NCBI GenBank assembly: GCA_024278555.1
Contig: JAJRSX010000170.1
Span: forward strand, 1-25,266
Direction: 5' to 3'
Source of the DNA: a bacterium
GTDB taxonomy: Bacteria > CG2-30-53-67 > CG2-30-70-394
DNA length: 25,266 nucleotides
This document shows positions 3,279 to 23,038 of this stretch, in pieces. Each line of letters starts with the position of its first letter. The first letter of the stretch is position 1. Made by a program: the position numbers and the translations under genes. Under the pieces are notes generated by a model that worked only from the letters and a program-made list of their open reading frames with translations, ran no database searches and had not been told where the DNA came from.

Positions 3279-3306
3279 GCTTTCAGCTTTCAGCGGTCAG
3301 CTTTCA
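3279..3306 (-). repeat. Heptad array upstream of nuoM
   Basis: Four 7-base units stand in tandem: GCTTTCA, GCTTTCA, GCGGTCA, GCTTTCA (plus strand). In the mRNA this reads as GCTGAAA-type units ending 8 bases before the nuoM ATG, where a Shine-Dalgarno would be expected. A complementary copy lies at 3613-3629. Confidence 0.85.
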
Positions 3307-3378
3307 GCGCGTGGGGCCGGGGGTTCGGAGTCGTAGGGGTGCAAGGGGATTTCGGTGGGGGGCTTGAAGGCGGATTCA

Positions 3379-3405: not shown

Positions 3406-3417
3406 CTGCATTGTTTT

Positions 3418-3510
3418 CGGTGCGCCGCGCTTCGCTTGACACACCCTACGGCCCGCTCCGGGGACGTGGATGAAAGACGTAGGGTGCGCCAAGCGAAGCG
3501 CGGCGCACCG
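3418..3510. repeat. Long inverted repeat element (GTAGGGTGCGCC type)
   Basis: Two 33-base arms (3418-3450 and 3478-3510) are reverse complements at 31 of 33 positions, with a 27-base centre. Each outer end begins CGGTGCGCCGCGCTTCGC and each inner end is the CGTAGGGTGCGCC word or its variant. It resembles REP or MITE-like palindromes whose transposase lies elsewhere. If transcribed as part of the nuo mRNA, it would form a long, very stable hairpin between nuoL and nuoM. Confidence 0.85.
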
Positions 3511-3612
3511 ACCGGAGCTGGAGCGACGCCGTACCGAAAAATGCGATAGAGACGAGGGTTAGCGGAAACCATATGAGCTGTGGGCAAGTCGCGATGGGCC
3601 GGGAATGGATTT

Positions 3613-3629
3613 GCTGATCGCTGAAAGCT
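3613..3629 (+). repeat. Inverted heptad array after nuoL stop
   Basis: The units are GCTGATC and GCTGAAA followed by GCT (plus strand), in the opposite orientation to the array at 3279-3306. It starts immediately after the nuoL stop. The 16 bases GCTGATCGCTGAAAGC match the strand opposite the nuoM-proximal array at 15 of 16 positions, so the two can pair in RNA. Confidence 0.75.
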
Positions 3630-3630
3630 C

Positions 3631-5625
3631 CTACAGCCACGTCGCCGACGCGACCACCGCGATGACCACAAAGCCGGTGAGCATGACCGTGGCGTAGTTG
3701 TTCACCCGGCCGGTCTGTAGCGGCCGGAGGCCGGCGCCGATGTCGCGGATGATGATGGCGGTGCCGTTGACGATGCCGTCGATGACGAAGACGTCGAAGC
3801 CGCGGTGCAGCAGCCGCGCGAGGGTCTTGATGGCGTTCACGAAGATGACGTCGTAGAGCTCATCCACGAAGTACTTGTTGAGCAGCACCCGGTGCACCTG
3901 CGGGAAGGCGCGGCCGAGGGCGACGGCACGCTCCGGCCGGCCGACGTAGAGGGCGTAGGCGATGGCGATCCCCGCCACCCCCACCGCCACCGAGAGGCCC
4001 ATGAGCCCCCACGCCACCGCCTCGGAGAGCTCGTGGGCGTGGGCCGCGTGGCCGTGGCCGAAGGCGGGGGCGAGGAAGGCGAGGATCCCCTCACCCATGT
4101 GGACCAGGGAGGGGCCGCCGAGGAGCTCGGGCCAGCCGACGATGCCGGCGACGCAGGAGAAGAGGGCGAGGACCACCAGGGGGCGGGTCATGGAGACCGG
4201 TGACTCGTGGATCTTCGACTCCGCCTCCGCCGGGTAGCGTCCCTCGCCGTGGAAGGTCATGAAGATGAGGCGGAACATGTAGAAGGCGGTCATCAGGGCC
4301 GCTGCCACCCCCACCCCCCAGAGGAGGGTGCCGAGTGCGTTGCCGTGGGCGAAGGCGCGCTCGAGGATCAGGTCCTTGGAGCAGAAGCCGGCGAGCGGCG
4401 GGATGCCGGCGATCGCCAGGGCGCCGACCACGAAGGTGCGGTAGGTGGCCGGCATCTGGGCGCGCAGGCCGCCCATGTTGCGCATGTCCTGCGGGTCGGC
4501 GTGGACCCCGGCGGCGTGGAAGCCGTGCTCCACCGAGTGGATCACCGCGCCGGAGCAGAGGAAGAGGAGCCCCTTGAAGAAGGCGTGGGTCATCAGGTGG
4601 AAGGCGGCGGCCCCGTAGGCCCCGAGCCCGGCGGCGAGGAACATGTAGCCGAGCTGGCTCACCGTGGAGTAGGCCAGCACCCGCTTGATGTCGTTCTGCA
4701 CCAGGCCGATGGAGGCGGCAAACAGGGCGGTGAAGCCGCCCACCACCGCCACCACGTCGGCGGCCACCGGCGCCAGGTCGAAGAGGGTGGAGCAGCGCGC
4801 CACCATGTAGACGCCGGCGGTAACCATGGTCGCCGCGTGGATCAGGGCGGAGACCGGGGTGGGGCCCTCCATGGCGTCGGGGAGCCAGACGTGCAGGGGG
4901 AACTGGGCCGACTTGCCCATGGCGCCGACAAACAGGAGCAGGCAGATGAGGGTGAGGGTCGGCACCTCCATCCCGAGGAGAGCGATGTGCTGGCCGACGA
5001 TCGTATGCGCCTGGGCGAAGACGGTGTGGTAGTCGAGGCTGCCGAAGGTCACCCAGATCAGGAAGATGCCGAGGCCGAAGCCGAAGTCCCCCACCCGGTT
5101 GACCACGAACGCCTTCTTGCCCGCGTCGGCGGCGGAGCGCTTCTCGTACCAGAAGCCGATCAGGTAGTAGGAGCAGACCCCCACCAGCTCCCACCCCACG
5201 TACAAGAGCAGGAAGTTGTTCGCCAGGACCAGGAGGAGCATGGAGAAGGTGAAGAGCGACAGGTAGGTGAAGAAGCGGCGGTAGCCGGGGTCCCCCTCCA
5301 TGTAGCCGGTGGAGTAGACGTGGACCGCGGAGCTGATCCCGGTGACCACCACCAACATCATCGCGGTGAGGGGGTCGACCTGGATGCCGACGCCCACCCG
5401 GAAGGTGCCGGCGGCAATCCAGGTGTAGAGGTCGCCGTAGAGGAAGGGGCCGTGGCCGGAGTGGCTCACCAGACCGATCACCGTGCCGATCGACAGGGCG
5501 AGGGCGGCGAGGACCGCCGCGGTGGCGATGCGGTGGCTCCAGCGGCGCGGGTAGAAGCTGCCGAAGAGGCCGTTGCAGAGAAAGGCCAGGAGCGGCAGGG
5601 CGGGGATCCAGGCGGTGGTGGTCAT
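3631..5625 (-). CDS. nuoL: NADH-quinone oxidoreductase subunit L
   Basis: This is the distal antiporter-like subunit of complex I. The protein has 664 residues, including the C-terminal extension that forms the long lateral helix along the membrane arm. Conserved residues are visible: Glu146 in YVGWELVGVCSYYLIGFW (TM5), Lys238 in GAMGKSAQFPLHVWLPDAM (TM7), His263 in LIHAATMVTAGVYMV (TM8), the QNDIKRVLAYSTVSQLG segment and CSKDLIL in TM12. The ATG at 5625 is preceded by AAGAG and then by a heptad array 8 bases away. The gene ends with TAG in GTAGGAG, which runs straight into another heptad array. Both flanks are therefore repeat-bounded. Confidence 0.97.
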   Translation of the reverse strand: MTTTAWIPALPLLAFLCNGLFGSFYPRRWSHRIATAAVLAALALSIGTVIGLVSHSGHGPFLYGDLYTWIAAGTFRVGVGIQVDPLTAMMLVVVTGISSAVHVYSTGYMEGDPGYRRFFTYLSLFTFSMLLLVLANNFLLLYVGWELVGVCSYYLIGFWYEKRSAADAGKKAFVVNRVGDFGFGLGIFLIWVTFGSLDYHTVFAQAHTIVGQHIALLGMEVPTLTLICLLLFVGAMGKSAQFPLHVWLPDAMEGPTPVSALIHAATMVTAGVYMVARCSTLFDLAPVAADVVAVVGGFTALFAASIGLVQNDIKRVLAYSTVSQLGYMFLAAGLGAYGAAAFHLMTHAFFKGLLFLCSGAVIHSVEHGFHAAGVHADPQDMRNMGGLRAQMPATYRTFVVGALAIAGIPPLAGFCSKDLILERAFAHGNALGTLLWGVGVAAALMTAFYMFRLIFMTFHGEGRYPAEAESKIHESPVSMTRPLVVLALFSCVAGIVGWPELLGGPSLVHMGEGILAFLAPAFGHGHAAHAHELSEAVAWGLMGLSVAVGVAGIAIAYALYVGRPERAVALGRAFPQVHRVLLNKYFVDELYDVIFVNAIKTLARLLHRGFDVFVIDGIVNGTAIIIRDIGAGLRPLQTGRVNNYATVMLTGFVVIAVVASATWL

Positions 5626-5633
5626 CTCTTTTG

Positions 5634-5661
5634 GCTCTCAGCTCTCAACGGTCAGCTCTCA
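5634..5661 (-). repeat. Heptad array upstream of nuoL
   Basis: Four 7-base units stand in tandem: GCTCTCA, GCTCTCA, ACGGTCA, GCTCTCA (plus strand), ending 8 bases before the nuoL ATG. This is the same order of units as at nuoM, with C for T in the core. An inverted partner lies at 5771-5790. Confidence 0.85.
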
Positions 5662-5770
5662 GCGCGCGGGGGACGGCCCTCGGCGTCGACTCCGCGGCAC
5701 ACGGCGGTCATCCATCTTGGGTGCTTCCTCCACTTACCCCTCCACGGCGCCCCCCCCTCGGCTCCAGAGA

Positions 5771-5790
5771 GCTGAAAGCTGAACGCCGAC
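5771..5790 (+). repeat. Inverted heptad array downstream of nuoK
   Basis: The units are GCTGAAA and GCTGAAC followed by GCCGAC, on the plus strand and in the opposite orientation to 5634-5661. The array lies 8 bases past the nuoK stop. Part of it, with the preceding GAGA, is complementary to the nuoL-proximal array. The rest of this 173-base spacer (5626-5798) shows no gene. Confidence 0.75.
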
Positions 5791-15062: not shown

Positions 15063-16547
15063 ATGGCCCCGCGCTCCTCCCGTCGGATCAAGGCGGTCGT
15101 CTACGACCTCCTCTCCAACCCCCTGTCGCCGGCGCGCAACGGGGTCGACCTGGGGATGAGCCTGGTGGTGGTGGTGTCGGTGATCGTCCTCCTGCTGGAG
15201 AGCAGCGTCGCCCCCGGCGACCCCCTGGCGGTGTGGGCCGAGCGGGTGGAGCTGGTGGTGGTGCCGCTGTTTATCGTCGAGTACCTCCTGCGCCTCTGGG
15301 TGGCGAGCGACTTCACCACCGACTACCTCAACCTGCGCGCCGCCGGCACCCCCCTTCCCGCCGCCGCCGGGCGGGCCCTGCTCCCGAAGCTCGCCTTCAT
15401 GGCCCACCCCCTGGCGGTGATCGACCTGCTCGCCATCCTCCCCGCCTTCCGCCCCTTCCGCCTGATGCGCATCTTCGTGCTGGTGCGCTTCCTGAAGATC
15501 CTCCGCTACTCGGGCCACGTGGGACAGCTCCTCTCCGCCTTCCGCGAGCGCTCCTGGGAGCTGGGGATGGTGACGCTCCTCTTCCTCGGGGTGTTGACCT
15601 TCTCCAGCTTCTCCATCTTCATCCTGGAAGCGGAGGTCAACCCGCGGATCCACACCCTCGGCGACGCCTTCTGGTGGGCGATCGTCACCATCACCACGGT
15701 CGGCTACGGCGACGTGGTGGCGGTCACCGGCGCCGGCAAGCTCCTCTCCGGTGGGGTGATGATCTCGGGCCTCGCCTTCCTCGCCTTCTCCACCTCCCTC
15801 ATCGCCTCCGCCCTCACCGAGAAGCTCCTCACCATCAAGGAGAAGAAGATGGTCGACGCCATTTCCCGCCTGAAGCGCCACTATGTAGTCTGCGGCTTCG
15901 GCCAGGTGGGCGAGGCGGTGGCCGACGAGCTCGCCGCCGCCCGCGCCCCCTTCGTCATCCTCGATCGCGACCCGGAGCGGGCCGAGGCCGCGGCAAAGAA
16001 GGGGTACGCGGCCTACGTCGGCAACGCCGTCTCCGAAGATGACCTCCAGGCGGTACGGCTGGATGAGGCGCGCGGCCTGGTGAGCGCCATGGCGAGCGAG
16101 GTGGACAACGTCTACACGGTGCTCACCGCCCGCGAGATGAACCCGACCATCCACATCGTCGCCCGCGCCGCCAGCGAAGAGGCGCGCAAAAAGCTCCTGC
16201 GTGTCGGCGCCAACCGGGTCGTCTACCCGGCGGCCGCCGGCTCCCGCCACATGGCCCACGTGCTCCTGCGCCCCACCGCAAGCGACTTCGTCGAGGTCGC
16301 CATGTCATCGGCCTGCGCTGAGCTCCAGCTCGAGGAGATCACCGTCAGCGCCGACTGCCCGGTCGCCGGCCTGCCGATCAACGAGAGTGGCCTGCGCTCC
16401 AACTACCACGTCCTGGCGGTGGCGGTGAAACGGCGCGACGGCACCATGATCACCGCGCCGCCGGGCAACCTCACCCTGGAGCTCGACGACGTGGTGGTCT
16501 GTATCGGCGGCCTCGACGACCTCGAACGGCTGCGCCGCGAGTGGTAG
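15063..16547 (+). CDS. Voltage-gated-like K+ channel with RCK (TrkA) domains
   Basis: The protein has 494 residues. A six-helix channel core (about residues 28-260) has an S4-like segment with regularly spaced charges (Arg133, Arg136, Arg142, Lys145, Arg148) and the selectivity filter TVGYGD at 212-217. It is followed by an RCK/TrkA-N domain starting VVCGFGQVG (residues 275-283), which has a Rossmann nucleotide-binding loop, and a TrkA-C domain from about residue 400. The domain order is that of E. coli Kch-type channels. I chose ATG 15063, close to the start of homology, although no strong Shine-Dalgarno precedes it. The gene is divergent from nuoA. It ends with TAG in GTAGGAG, which leads into a hairpin. 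Confidence 0.93.
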   Translation: MAPRSSRRIKAVVYDLLSNPLSPARNGVDLGMSLVVVVSVIVLLLESSVAPGDPLAVWAERVELVVVPLFIVEYLLRLWVASDFTTDYLNLRAAGTPLPAAAGRALLPKLAFMAHPLAVIDLLAILPAFRPFRLMRIFVLVRFLKILRYSGHVGQLLSAFRERSWELGMVTLLFLGVLTFSSFSIFILEAEVNPRIHTLGDAFWWAIVTITTVGYGDVVAVTGAGKLLSGGVMISGLAFLAFSTSLIASALTEKLLTIKEKKMVDAISRLKRHYVVCGFGQVGEAVADELAAARAPFVILDRDPERAEAAAKKGYAAYVGNAVSEDDLQAVRLDEARGLVSAMASEVDNVYTVLTAREMNPTIHIVARAASEEARKKLLRVGANRVVYPAAAGSRHMAHVLLRPTASDFVEVAMSSACAELQLEEITVSADCPVAGLPINESGLRSNYHVLAVAVKRRDGTMITAPPGNLTLELDDVVVCIGGLDDLERLRREW

Positions 16548-16550
16548 GAG

Positions 16551-16595
16551 TGCGGTCTTCTTCGCAGACCGCAGAGGCGGCGCTACGACGCCGCC
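16551..16595 (+). terminator. Two tandem hairpins after the K+ channel gene
   Basis: Stem TGCGGTCT/AGACCGCA (16551-16573, 7-base loop) is followed by GGCGGCG/CGCCGCC (16576-16595, 6-base loop). They begin four bases after the channel stop codon. There is no T run, so they could act as a rho-dependent or processing site; the first one is also REP-like (GTAGGAG plus stem). No gene lies from here to 16717. Confidence 0.4.
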
Positions 16596-16638
16596 GAGGG
16601 GGGAGGATTAGGTACGACACGGTGACCGTAGCAATGAG

Positions 16639-16721
16639 GTAGGAGCGGGCCATGCCCGCGATCCAGGCCCGGAGGGCCTGCCGCGCCGGTGGCGCGGATC
16701 GGGGGCATGGCCCCCTCCTAC
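16639..16721. repeat. REP-like element of four consecutive hairpins
   Basis: The outer arms 16639-16664 and 16696-16721 are inverted copies (24 of 26). Each arm is itself a hairpin: GCGGGC-CAT-GCCCGC on the left and GGGGGC-ATG-GCCCCC on the right. Two more stems lie between (AGGCCC/GGGCCT and GCGCC/GGCGC). The two differences between the arms are paired so that each arm keeps its own stem. The right end GTAG (minus strand) supplies the stop codon of the SRPBCC gene. Confidence 0.85.
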
Positions 16722-17329
16722 TCGCCCACCGCCACGCGCAGGGGCACCGCCGCACCACCCACGGCGCCCTGCCGGGCCGCCTCATAGGCGGCACGGAGGA
16801 ACTCGCGGGCGAAGTGCTCCATCACCGGCCGGGTGGCGATGTTCGGCAACCCCACGTCGATCACCGCCCAGTAGCTCAGGCGGACGTGGCCGTCCTGATT
16901 GCGGACGATCAGCGTCCCGTTGAGCTTCTTGAAGCTCCCCTCGATCTGGCGCCACGCCAGGGTGTGGCCGCCGAACTGTTCCACCTCCAGGCGCGCCCAC
17001 TGGCGGCCCGCGGGCCACGGCAGATCGAGGATCACGAAGACCTGCTGGGTCCCGTTGTCCGGATCAGTGGAGAGACGGTAGCTCTCGGCGATCCACGGGT
17101 GGAGCCCCGGATAGCGGGTGAGGTCACAGAGGACCCGGCATAGCTCGTGGTCCACCGCCCCAAAATCCGCCTCCACGTGGAGGATCTGCTCGTGGGGCGT
17201 CGCGCCGGGGGAAAAGCCGGTGTCGATCCGCGGCGAGACAGGCGCCGCACCCGCCGTGGCGACGGCCACCGCGACCGCCGCCAGCAAAGGCCGCCACCTA
17301 GCCACTTTATTTGCCGAGTTACGTACCAT
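16718..17329 (-). CDS. Exported SRPBCC/START-like domain protein
   Basis: The protein has 203 residues. Residues 1-29 form a typical signal peptide (basic start, hydrophobic run LLAAVAVAVATAGA, then Ala-rich end), so the mature protein should be periplasmic or secreted. The rest resembles SRPBCC or polyketide-cyclase-like ligand-binding domains: an N-terminal helix region followed by LTRYPGLHPWIAESYRL, several beta strands (LAWRQIEGSFKKLNGTLIV), and a long C-terminal helix. I do not know its ligand. The start has AGGGAA at a good distance, and a candidate promoter lies at 17433-17461. The stop codon lies within a REP-like palindrome. It is divergent from gcvPA. Confidence 0.7.
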   Translation of the reverse strand: MVRNSANKVARWRPLLAAVAVAVATAGAAPVSPRIDTGFSPGATPHEQILHVEADFGAVDHELCRVLCDLTRYPGLHPWIAESYRLSTDPDNGTQQVFVILDLPWPAGRQWARLEVEQFGGHTLAWRQIEGSFKKLNGTLIVRNQDGHVRLSYWAVIDVGLPNIATRPVMEHFAREFLRAAYEAARQGAVGGAAVPLRVAVGE

Positions 17330-22166: not shown

Positions 22167-22171
22167 TCTTG

Positions 22172-22185
22172 GCTTTCAGCGGTCA
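22172..22185 (-). repeat. Heptad pair upstream of hupD
   Basis: Two units, GCTTTCA and GCGGTCA (plus strand), lie five bases before the hupD ATG. These are the same units, in the same orientation relative to the gene, as those before nuoM. Confidence 0.7.
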
Positions 22186-22207
22186 GCGAAGCCGCGACGG
22201 GATGGTG

Positions 22208-22290
22208 GTAGGAGCGGGCCATGCCCGCGATCCGCGCCGCAGGCGGGGCAGGCCCTTCGAGCCTGGATCGCGGGCATGGCCCGCTCCTAC
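22208..22290. repeat. REP-like palindrome with perfect 26-base arms
   Basis: Arms 22208-22233 and 22265-22290 are perfect reverse complements, with a 31-base centre. Each arm begins GTAGGAGCGGGCC and contains the hairpin GCGGGC-CAT-GCCCGC. It is the same family and overall length (83 bases) as 16639-16721. Its right end supplies the TAG stop of hupC. It could stabilise the upstream hupS-hupL-hupC message against 3' exonucleases. Confidence 0.9.
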
Positions 22291-22985
22291 CTTCCTTTGG
22301 GCGAGCGCCATCCGCCGACGATCGAGGAGAGCGAGGTGGTGCGACCGACGATGTCGGCGCGCACCGCCATGTAGATGTGGATGATGACGAAGCACAGAAG
22401 GATCCACATGCCGAGGAGGTGCCAGTTATTAACCCGCTCGGCGTCGCCAAAGAGGGGGACCACCCAGCCGAAGGCGCGGTCCGCCCAGCTCCCGTGGCCG
22501 AGCCCCTCACCGTAGAGGGCGAAGCCGGTGAAGATCATGAAGAGGGTCCCCAGGGTGTTGAAGAGGAGCATGGCGACCTGCGCCAAGGGGGCGTGGCCGG
22601 ACTCGGTGGGCGGCTCTTTGCGCAGGAAGAGGTAAAAGGCGATCTCCTCCCCGAGGCCGCACCACCAGCTCCCACGCCACACCGGCAGGTAGAAGATCTG
22701 GCGCGACACCTGGTTGCCCACCAGGGCCCAGTAGATCCGCCCGGCGAGGGAGACCGCCAGGAGGTAGCCGGCGGTGAAGTGGACCAGCCGGATCCGCCCC
22801 ATGATGAAGTGGTCGCTCGCCTCTCCCATGACCGTGGGCAGGGGGTGGGCGATCAGGTAGCCGGTGGCGGCGAGGGTGAAGATGCACGCCGCATTCACCC
22901 AGTGGTAGAGGCGCACCGGCGCCTGGAAGGCGTAGACCGGCTGGGATGCCGGGACGGGGGATGCGTGGGTGGTGGTGGCAGCCAT
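22287..22985 (-). CDS. hupC: Ni/Fe-hydrogenase b-type cytochrome subunit
   Basis: This di-heme cytochrome b anchors the periplasmic hydrogenase and passes electrons from H2 to quinone. It has 232 residues and four transmembrane helices. Candidate heme ligands are His28 (RLYHWVN), His69 (RLVHFTAGY), His189 (NNWHLLGMW) and His203 (IIHIYMAVR), the pattern of the HupC/HyaC/CybH family. The family end DIVGRTTSLSSIVGGWR is clear. The start has GGGAG upstream. The final codons PKGR are followed by TAG that belongs to the REP-like palindrome. A 93-base spacer with a heptad array separates it from hupL. Confidence 0.95.
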   Translation of the reverse strand: MAATTTHASPVPASQPVYAFQAPVRLYHWVNAACIFTLAATGYLIAHPLPTVMGEASDHFIMGRIRLVHFTAGYLLAVSLAGRIYWALVGNQVSRQIFYLPVWRGSWWCGLGEEIAFYLFLRKEPPTESGHAPLAQVAMLLFNTLGTLFMIFTGFALYGEGLGHGSWADRAFGWVVPLFGDAERVNNWHLLGMWILLCFVIIHIYMAVRADIVGRTTSLSSIVGGWRSPKGR

Positions 22986-23003: not shown

Positions 23004-23038
23004 GCGTTCAGCGTTCAGCGTTCAGCGGTCGGCTCTTG
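23004..23038 (-). repeat. Heptad array between hupL and hupC
   Basis: The units GCGTTCA (three times), GCGGTCG and GCTCTTG stand in tandem on the plus strand, 18 bases before the hupC ATG. They are of the same family as the arrays in the nuo operon and before hupD, but no inverted partner is visible in this spacer. Confidence 0.8.

Follow-up and report, generated by a model that had tools for sequence, protein, structure and literature searches.

Heads of a GTAG-type REP family coincide with TAG stop codons that usually appear to be older than the element

Why do genes end exactly at the head of a repeat, and which was there first, the stop codon or the repeat? These questions are raised by a window of 25,266 nt (contig 150 in a genome of 3.06 Mb and 211 contigs), in which the string GTAGGAG occurs 10 times against 1.7 expected and, at the ends of nuoL, a K+ channel gene, an SRPBCC-type gene, and hupC, contains the in-frame TAG stop codon (Table 1). 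The closest named relative that we met is Nitrospirae bacterium CG2_30_70_394, the HupC of which is 84% identical. An earlier note on this DNA had suggested that all four stops lie at the head of a repeat or hairpin, that this head supplies the stop or coincides with it, and that gene ends are targeted or insertions with an in-frame stop retained. We found all four stops as described; however, a repeat or hairpin is present only at the SRPBCC-type gene and hupC. The pattern is real, and these two genes belong to it, while the other two do not. The coincidence itself is already known, as Di Nocera, De Gregorio and Rocco briefly stated in 2013 that the termini of GTAG REPs often provide a TAG stop to flanking ORFs (PMC3733652). 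Here, we turn this one-line remark into a measured effect by adding counts and, from empty-site comparisons pointing to a pre-existing TAG, the order of events. In the literature that we searched, we found no explanation for the coincidence.

Table 1. Repeats, stop codons and genes in the window
Feature	Position	Strand	Remarks
GTAGGAG at nuoL end, non-REP	3628-3634	-	Stop 3631-3633; two degenerate heptads next; fold z +0.25
GTAGGAG at K+ channel gene end, non-REP	16544-16550	+	Stop 16545-16547; single copy in 0.97-Mb sample; fold z -0.33
REP doublet (REPIN) between K+ channel gene and SRPBCC-type gene, GTAGGAGCGGGCCATGCCCGCGATC ... GATCGGGGGCATGGCCCCCTCCTAC	16638-16721		Inverted arms 16639-16669/16691-16721; fold z -7.4
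TAG stop of SRPBCC-type gene, common to REP head	16718-16720	-	Last codon GAG; GTAGGAG at 16715-16721
SRPBCC-type gene	16718-17287	-	Name from the earlier note; no NCBIfam match
REP doublet (REPIN) downstream of hupC, GGTAGGAG...CTCCTACC	22207-22291		Perfectly complementary 27-nt arms 22207-22233/22265-22291; fold z -9.0
TAG stop of hupC, common to REP head	22287-22289	-	Last codon AGG; GTAGGAG at 22284-22290
hupC, Ni/Fe-hydrogenase b-type cytochrome subunit	22287-22985	-	TIGR02125, 231.7 bits (cut-off, 121.5)

We interpret the GTAGGAG at the ends of nuoL and the K+ channel gene as coincidental. Neither context combines the palindrome and the repetition of a GTAG REP. At the K+ channel gene, an 8-bp inverted repeat recognized by eye at 16551-16573 folds no better than shuffled sequences; there is no further copy of this context in a 0.97-Mb sample of the same genome and no match in a congener. 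Based on the single copy in the sample and the weak fold, we rejected the possibility that this hairpin represents another REP class. The context of nuoL consists of about two degenerate heptads and does not fold above shuffles; the congener protein terminates at the identical position (ATWL), with TGA as its stop codon (stretch L237). Heptad arrays as the common cause were also rejected, as they show no spike at stops in the sample: on the same strand and in head orientation, their distances to a stop are only 8, 33, and 35 nt and never 0 nt. The nuoL and K+ channel genes should, therefore, be dropped from the set that the earlier note assembled.

The repeat at the SRPBCC-type gene and hupC is a GTAG-type REP that is arranged as REPINs and is species-specific. 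The unit reads GTAGGAG(C/G)GGG(CCATG or TTGTA)CCC(C/G)CGATC, with the inverse repeat ∼83 bp away, and forms a short palindrome preceded by an unpaired GTAG; both doublets in the window fold far above shuffled sequence. Allowing at most one mismatch, we found 164 copies of the core in the whole genome (G000) compared with 0 for the reversed-pattern control, and 0 copies in 30 relatives, including the congener (G001). The sample of the same genome contains 30 inverted pairs, mostly 82-85 bp, and inspection of its doublets by eye revealed no consistent target-site duplications around REPINs. In the main families, every head lies in non-coding DNA or at a stop, save one copy at a doubtful gene start. 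True REPs inside genes were rejected, the apparent cases being chance matches in coding DNA or this type of doubtful start.

Based on sequence class, copy number, and pairing, the REPIN can be classed as a small non-autonomous element of the kind mobilized by REP-associated tyrosine transposases (RAYTs), and it is presumably moved in this way. The genome has four Y1 transposase (Y1_Tnp) genes, of which the three that were scanned are closest to the REP-associated tyrosine transposase family NF047646 and score just below its cut-off. None of the four is clearly flanked by a cognate inverted REP pair; a GTAGGAG palindrome lies 129 nt from the start of one RAYT-like gene. In these two respects, the family differs from described TnpA_REP/RAYT systems (PMC2817692, PMC8266576), with which it shares the GTAG motif 5' of a hairpin and the presence of RAYT-like genes. 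With the GTAG-tagged REP superfamily (PMC3733652), it has in common a palindrome of 20-40 nt with unpaired GTAG at one end, a high copy number, monomers and dimers, an intergenic location, and proximity to 3' ends; unlike that superfamily, it occurs near Nitrospirae bacterium CG2_30_70_394 and is confined to one species among the 31 genomes searched. The inverted REP doublet as the unit is as in the REPINs of Pseudomonas fluorescens (Bertels and Rainey 2011, PMC3116915); in the passages of that paper that we consulted, we did not find doublets fixed by one end or by both exactly at stops, as seen here. The REP of Pseudomonas putida, TGTGGGAGCGGGCNTGCCCGCGAA (PMC2817692), has a very similar core, GGAGCGGGC...GCCCGCGA; however, its head is GTGG rather than GTAG and, therefore, a shared stop codon is possible only in the present family.

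How often is a REP head a stop? The check that the earlier note proposed for the whole genome was run on about a third of it, i.e., ∼0.95 Mb chosen for REP-like strings plus the window (0.97 Mb). Genes were called for this analysis by a hexamer model trained on the nuo and other genes of the window, which reproduced the window genes and gave a coding fraction of 0.84; both these calls and the selection of the sample to contain REPs bear on all stop counts. For true REPs, the outcome was strongly positive: in the two main families, TAG is the in-frame stop in 26 of the 87 intact heads (27/94 by other bookkeeping), and the next head-to-stop distances are 8 and 18 nt and then at least 32 nt, while uniform placement of each head within its own gap predicts 0.46 of 107 at a stop. 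We found no reading frame in the sample that continues through a true REP head in either of the remaining phases. The link between REP head and in-frame TAG is thus non-random, and the copies do not lie at random distances and frames from gene ends, the outcome that the earlier note had named as contradicting it.

This link does not in itself demand that gene ends are targeted. Among REP heads, 31 of 110 (28%) are stops compared with 206 of 1,039 (20%) of non-REP non-coding GTAG (p 0.047), and the share is 25-28% for non-REP strings GTAGGA or TAGGAG. As many as 20% of non-REP non-coding GTAG are stops because an in-frame TAG cannot occur elsewhere. The difference between 28% and 20% is barely significant; therefore, most of the effect would arise even with no bias towards gene ends if elements settled at a pre-existing GTAG, and the targeting suggested in the earlier note is not needed as such. 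Chance together with motif bias, i.e., non-coding strings headed by (G)TAG are often stops as TAG is excluded inside frames, could then explain the coincidence on its own. However, this requires that the elements sample GTAG sequences already in place, whereas uniform landing of elements with their own head gives less than 1%; we regard this explanation as possible but unlikely. TAG makes up 37-38% of stops in this species and the congener, a share that seems large given a GC content of 70%; an effect of REPs on this usage was rejected, as the REP-less congener has 37%.

To determine the order of events, we used the congener, which lacks the REP family and has ∼82% identity, as the empty-site reference, comparing 0.88 Mb of it. 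Orthologue ends were readable for 14 REP-ended genes, nearly all in the congener and for hupC in Nitrospirae bacterium CG2_30_70_394. In these orthologues without REP, the stop is TAG in 12 and TGA and TAA in one each, and the end lies at the identical residue in 8 and within two residues in 10. The TAG count exceeds the 37% TAG use in the congener (p 2e-4) and does not differ from that of ordinary TAG-ended genes of this genome, the orthologues of which have TAG in 54/83 and the identical last residue in 53/83 cases; for TGA- and TAA-ended genes, the orthologue has TAG in 30/123. The SRPBCC-type orthologue in the congener ends in ...RVAVRD followed by TAG at the same place and has no REP (L236). 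The identity and position of the orthologous stops suggest that the TAG is mostly older than the element and that a REP usually joins at an existing TAG rather than creating a stop. On the same comparison (p 2e-4), we reject the idea that an element introduces its stop irrespective of the stop previously in place. It may also be that the lack of REPs in the congener reflects loss there. The interpretation in the earlier note is therefore partly supported: the link is real, while a stop supplied by the repeat head is not the usual case. In the comparison of C-termini with relatives lacking the element, which it had proposed, hupC differs by -9 residues (its orthologue ends 9 residues later, also at TAG; L145), L067+ by -8, L088- by +9, and L052 by +2, and L045 also differs. 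The ends of hupC, L045, L088-, and L067+ would fit stops that came with the element and slightly changed the C-terminus.

The base before GTAG separates the copies further. Among non-stop copies, it is G in 75/79 and A in 0/79, while the 31 stop copies comprise 18 with G, 12 with A, and 1 with C. The ratio of A to G at stop copies (12:18) is the same as at ordinary GTAG stops (49:74), and C or T is nearly absent from stop copies (1/31) compared with ordinary GTAG stops (83/206, 40%; p 1e-5). The doublet at the SRPBCC-type gene displays both types: the element-type G precedes its left head (GGTAGGAG) and the host A its right head. In stop copies of the A type, the codon before TAG is GAG, CAG, or AAG; for the four genes of this type that we tested, the congener stop is always TAG; three of these stops are at an unchanged position, and the fourth is displaced by at most one residue. 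Of the 10 tested genes of the G type, the C-terminus is changed in 5, as an element-supplied stop would predict.

Taking these comparisons together, we consider it somewhat probable that a REPIN was joined to genes already ending in (R)GTAG, so that the TAG of the gene and the TAG of the element would coincide, with a minority of stops supplied by the element. According to this explanation, the element end, carrying (G)GTAG (in the unit GGTAGGAG...CTCCTACC of ∼83 bp), would be joined to a gene with an existing (R)GTAG stop, making both TAGs the same three bases, a coincidence that we observe; that the stop came first and the element later is the order supported by the REP-less congener. The join was probably made by pairing or microhomology between the GGTAG strand of the element and the stop template CTAC(C/T), either when the element inserted or when the spacer separating it from the stop was later deleted. 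The absence of read-through copies in the other phases is as would be expected if C-terminal fusions are removed. In the minority, the element itself would probably supply the last bases and the stop, so that a few residues at the C-terminus would change. The GGAG of the head belongs to the REP itself, with no role in translation indicated; a function as Shine-Dalgarno sequence for the next gene is not supported because the SRPBCC stop faces a convergent neighbor.

We tentatively considered a stronger version, which we find rather unlikely, in which RGTAG stops are the landing or joining sites themselves: a single-stranded GGTAG end would pair with template CTAC(C/T), G-T wobble being allowed, and one or both ends would anchor, replacing the convergent spacer. 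The purine rule at stop copies would fit such pairing; the pairing leaves the near-uniform G at non-stop copies unaccounted for. This 95% G does not fit a single simple RGTAG target rule for all insertions and, like the altered C-termini of G-type genes, also counts against the explanation preferred above; so does the finding that other TnpA_REP enzymes recognize GTAG and the hairpin in vitro but cut at CT or CA and not at GTAG (PMC8266576). If this version were true, stop codon choice would shape where a bacterial MITE-like element settles.

Doublets between convergent genes bear on how the join was made. In three REPINs (L088 4510-4593, L090 1157-1239, and L067 10883-10990), both outer ends are TAG stops of convergent neighbors, and a tandem REPIN pair (L058 9368-9577) likewise lies exactly between both convergent stops; the congener spacers of the first three gene pairs are ∼410-730 nt. 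Plain insertion could not easily yield such double-anchored REPINs, whereas they could arise if the spacer was replaced or deleted at shared TAGs. It is conceivable, although in our view unlikely, that deletion rather than insertion made the join, i.e., that REPINs land randomly in spacers and that later hairpin-promoted deletions between stop TAG and element TAG at 3-5 nt of microhomology fuse the two. The host-type A at the junction and the double-anchored copies agree with this scenario. However, the bases before GTAG should then mirror those at host stops, whereas C and T are nearly absent there, and the spacers may have been lost at any time; convergent spacers without REP are short in this genome generally (median 66 nt).

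More doubtful is the explanation that REPs insert within the final codons of genes or immediately ahead of the stop and that only the phase giving TAG survives. It accounts for the lack of read-through, as either of the other phases would extend the protein by at least ∼25 residues encoded by the REP, for the element-type GG before TAG in 18 of the 31 stop copies, and for the C-termini that differ from the relative in hupC, L067+, L088-, L045, and L052; however, the REP-less orthologues mostly have TAG already, often at the identical residue, and the host-type A is found at stop copies only. Finally, selection for a REP hairpin right after the stop that tunes translation, mRNA stability, or convergent termination is improbable: the folds are very stable, in other species REPs are concentrated close to 3' ends (PMC3733652), and E. 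coli REPs at most 15 nt from a stop reportedly lower translation (as cited in PMC12306157), but such selection does not predict exact TAG identity rather than distances of 1-15 nt, where almost none occur, and no U tract follows the hairpin in the sequence.

Two consequences follow for work on these elements. The choice of targets by REPINs becomes testable from sequence by way of the base at -1, the stop identity at empty sites, and double-anchored convergent copies. For gene annotation, TAG-headed REPs that can end genes exactly call for caution.

Several further observations concern related strings. Seven REP copies in the sample have a GCAG head instead of GTAG, and in none of them is the head a stop. 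The RAYT-like transposase at L034:904-1839 (-) has a C-terminal match to a DnaA-type domain. The recurring string TAGGAG(T/C)CTGTCGG starts at TAG stops in L035, L037, L055, L091, and others and is also found right after a congener stop (the L139 orthologue); it may be a separate element common to both species. Also frequent in the sample are the palindrome CCGCAGCGTTAACGCTG (28 counts, both strands) and GCCACGGAATCCAC (30). Heptad arrays with TTTCAGC/GGTCAGC units occupy many spacers of the window (3281-3308, 3612-3630, 5632-5660, 5768-5790, 22170-22190, and 23005-23035), and GGTCAGC units account for some of the commonest 14-mers in the sample (38 copies), with no clustering at stops. The nuoM-nuoL spacer (window 3417-3511) contains a second GTAG-headed inverted pair, CGTAGGGTGCGCCAAGCGAAGCGCGGCGCACCGA, which has its heads inward and resembles other GTAG REP classes, e.g., those listed for enterobacteria.
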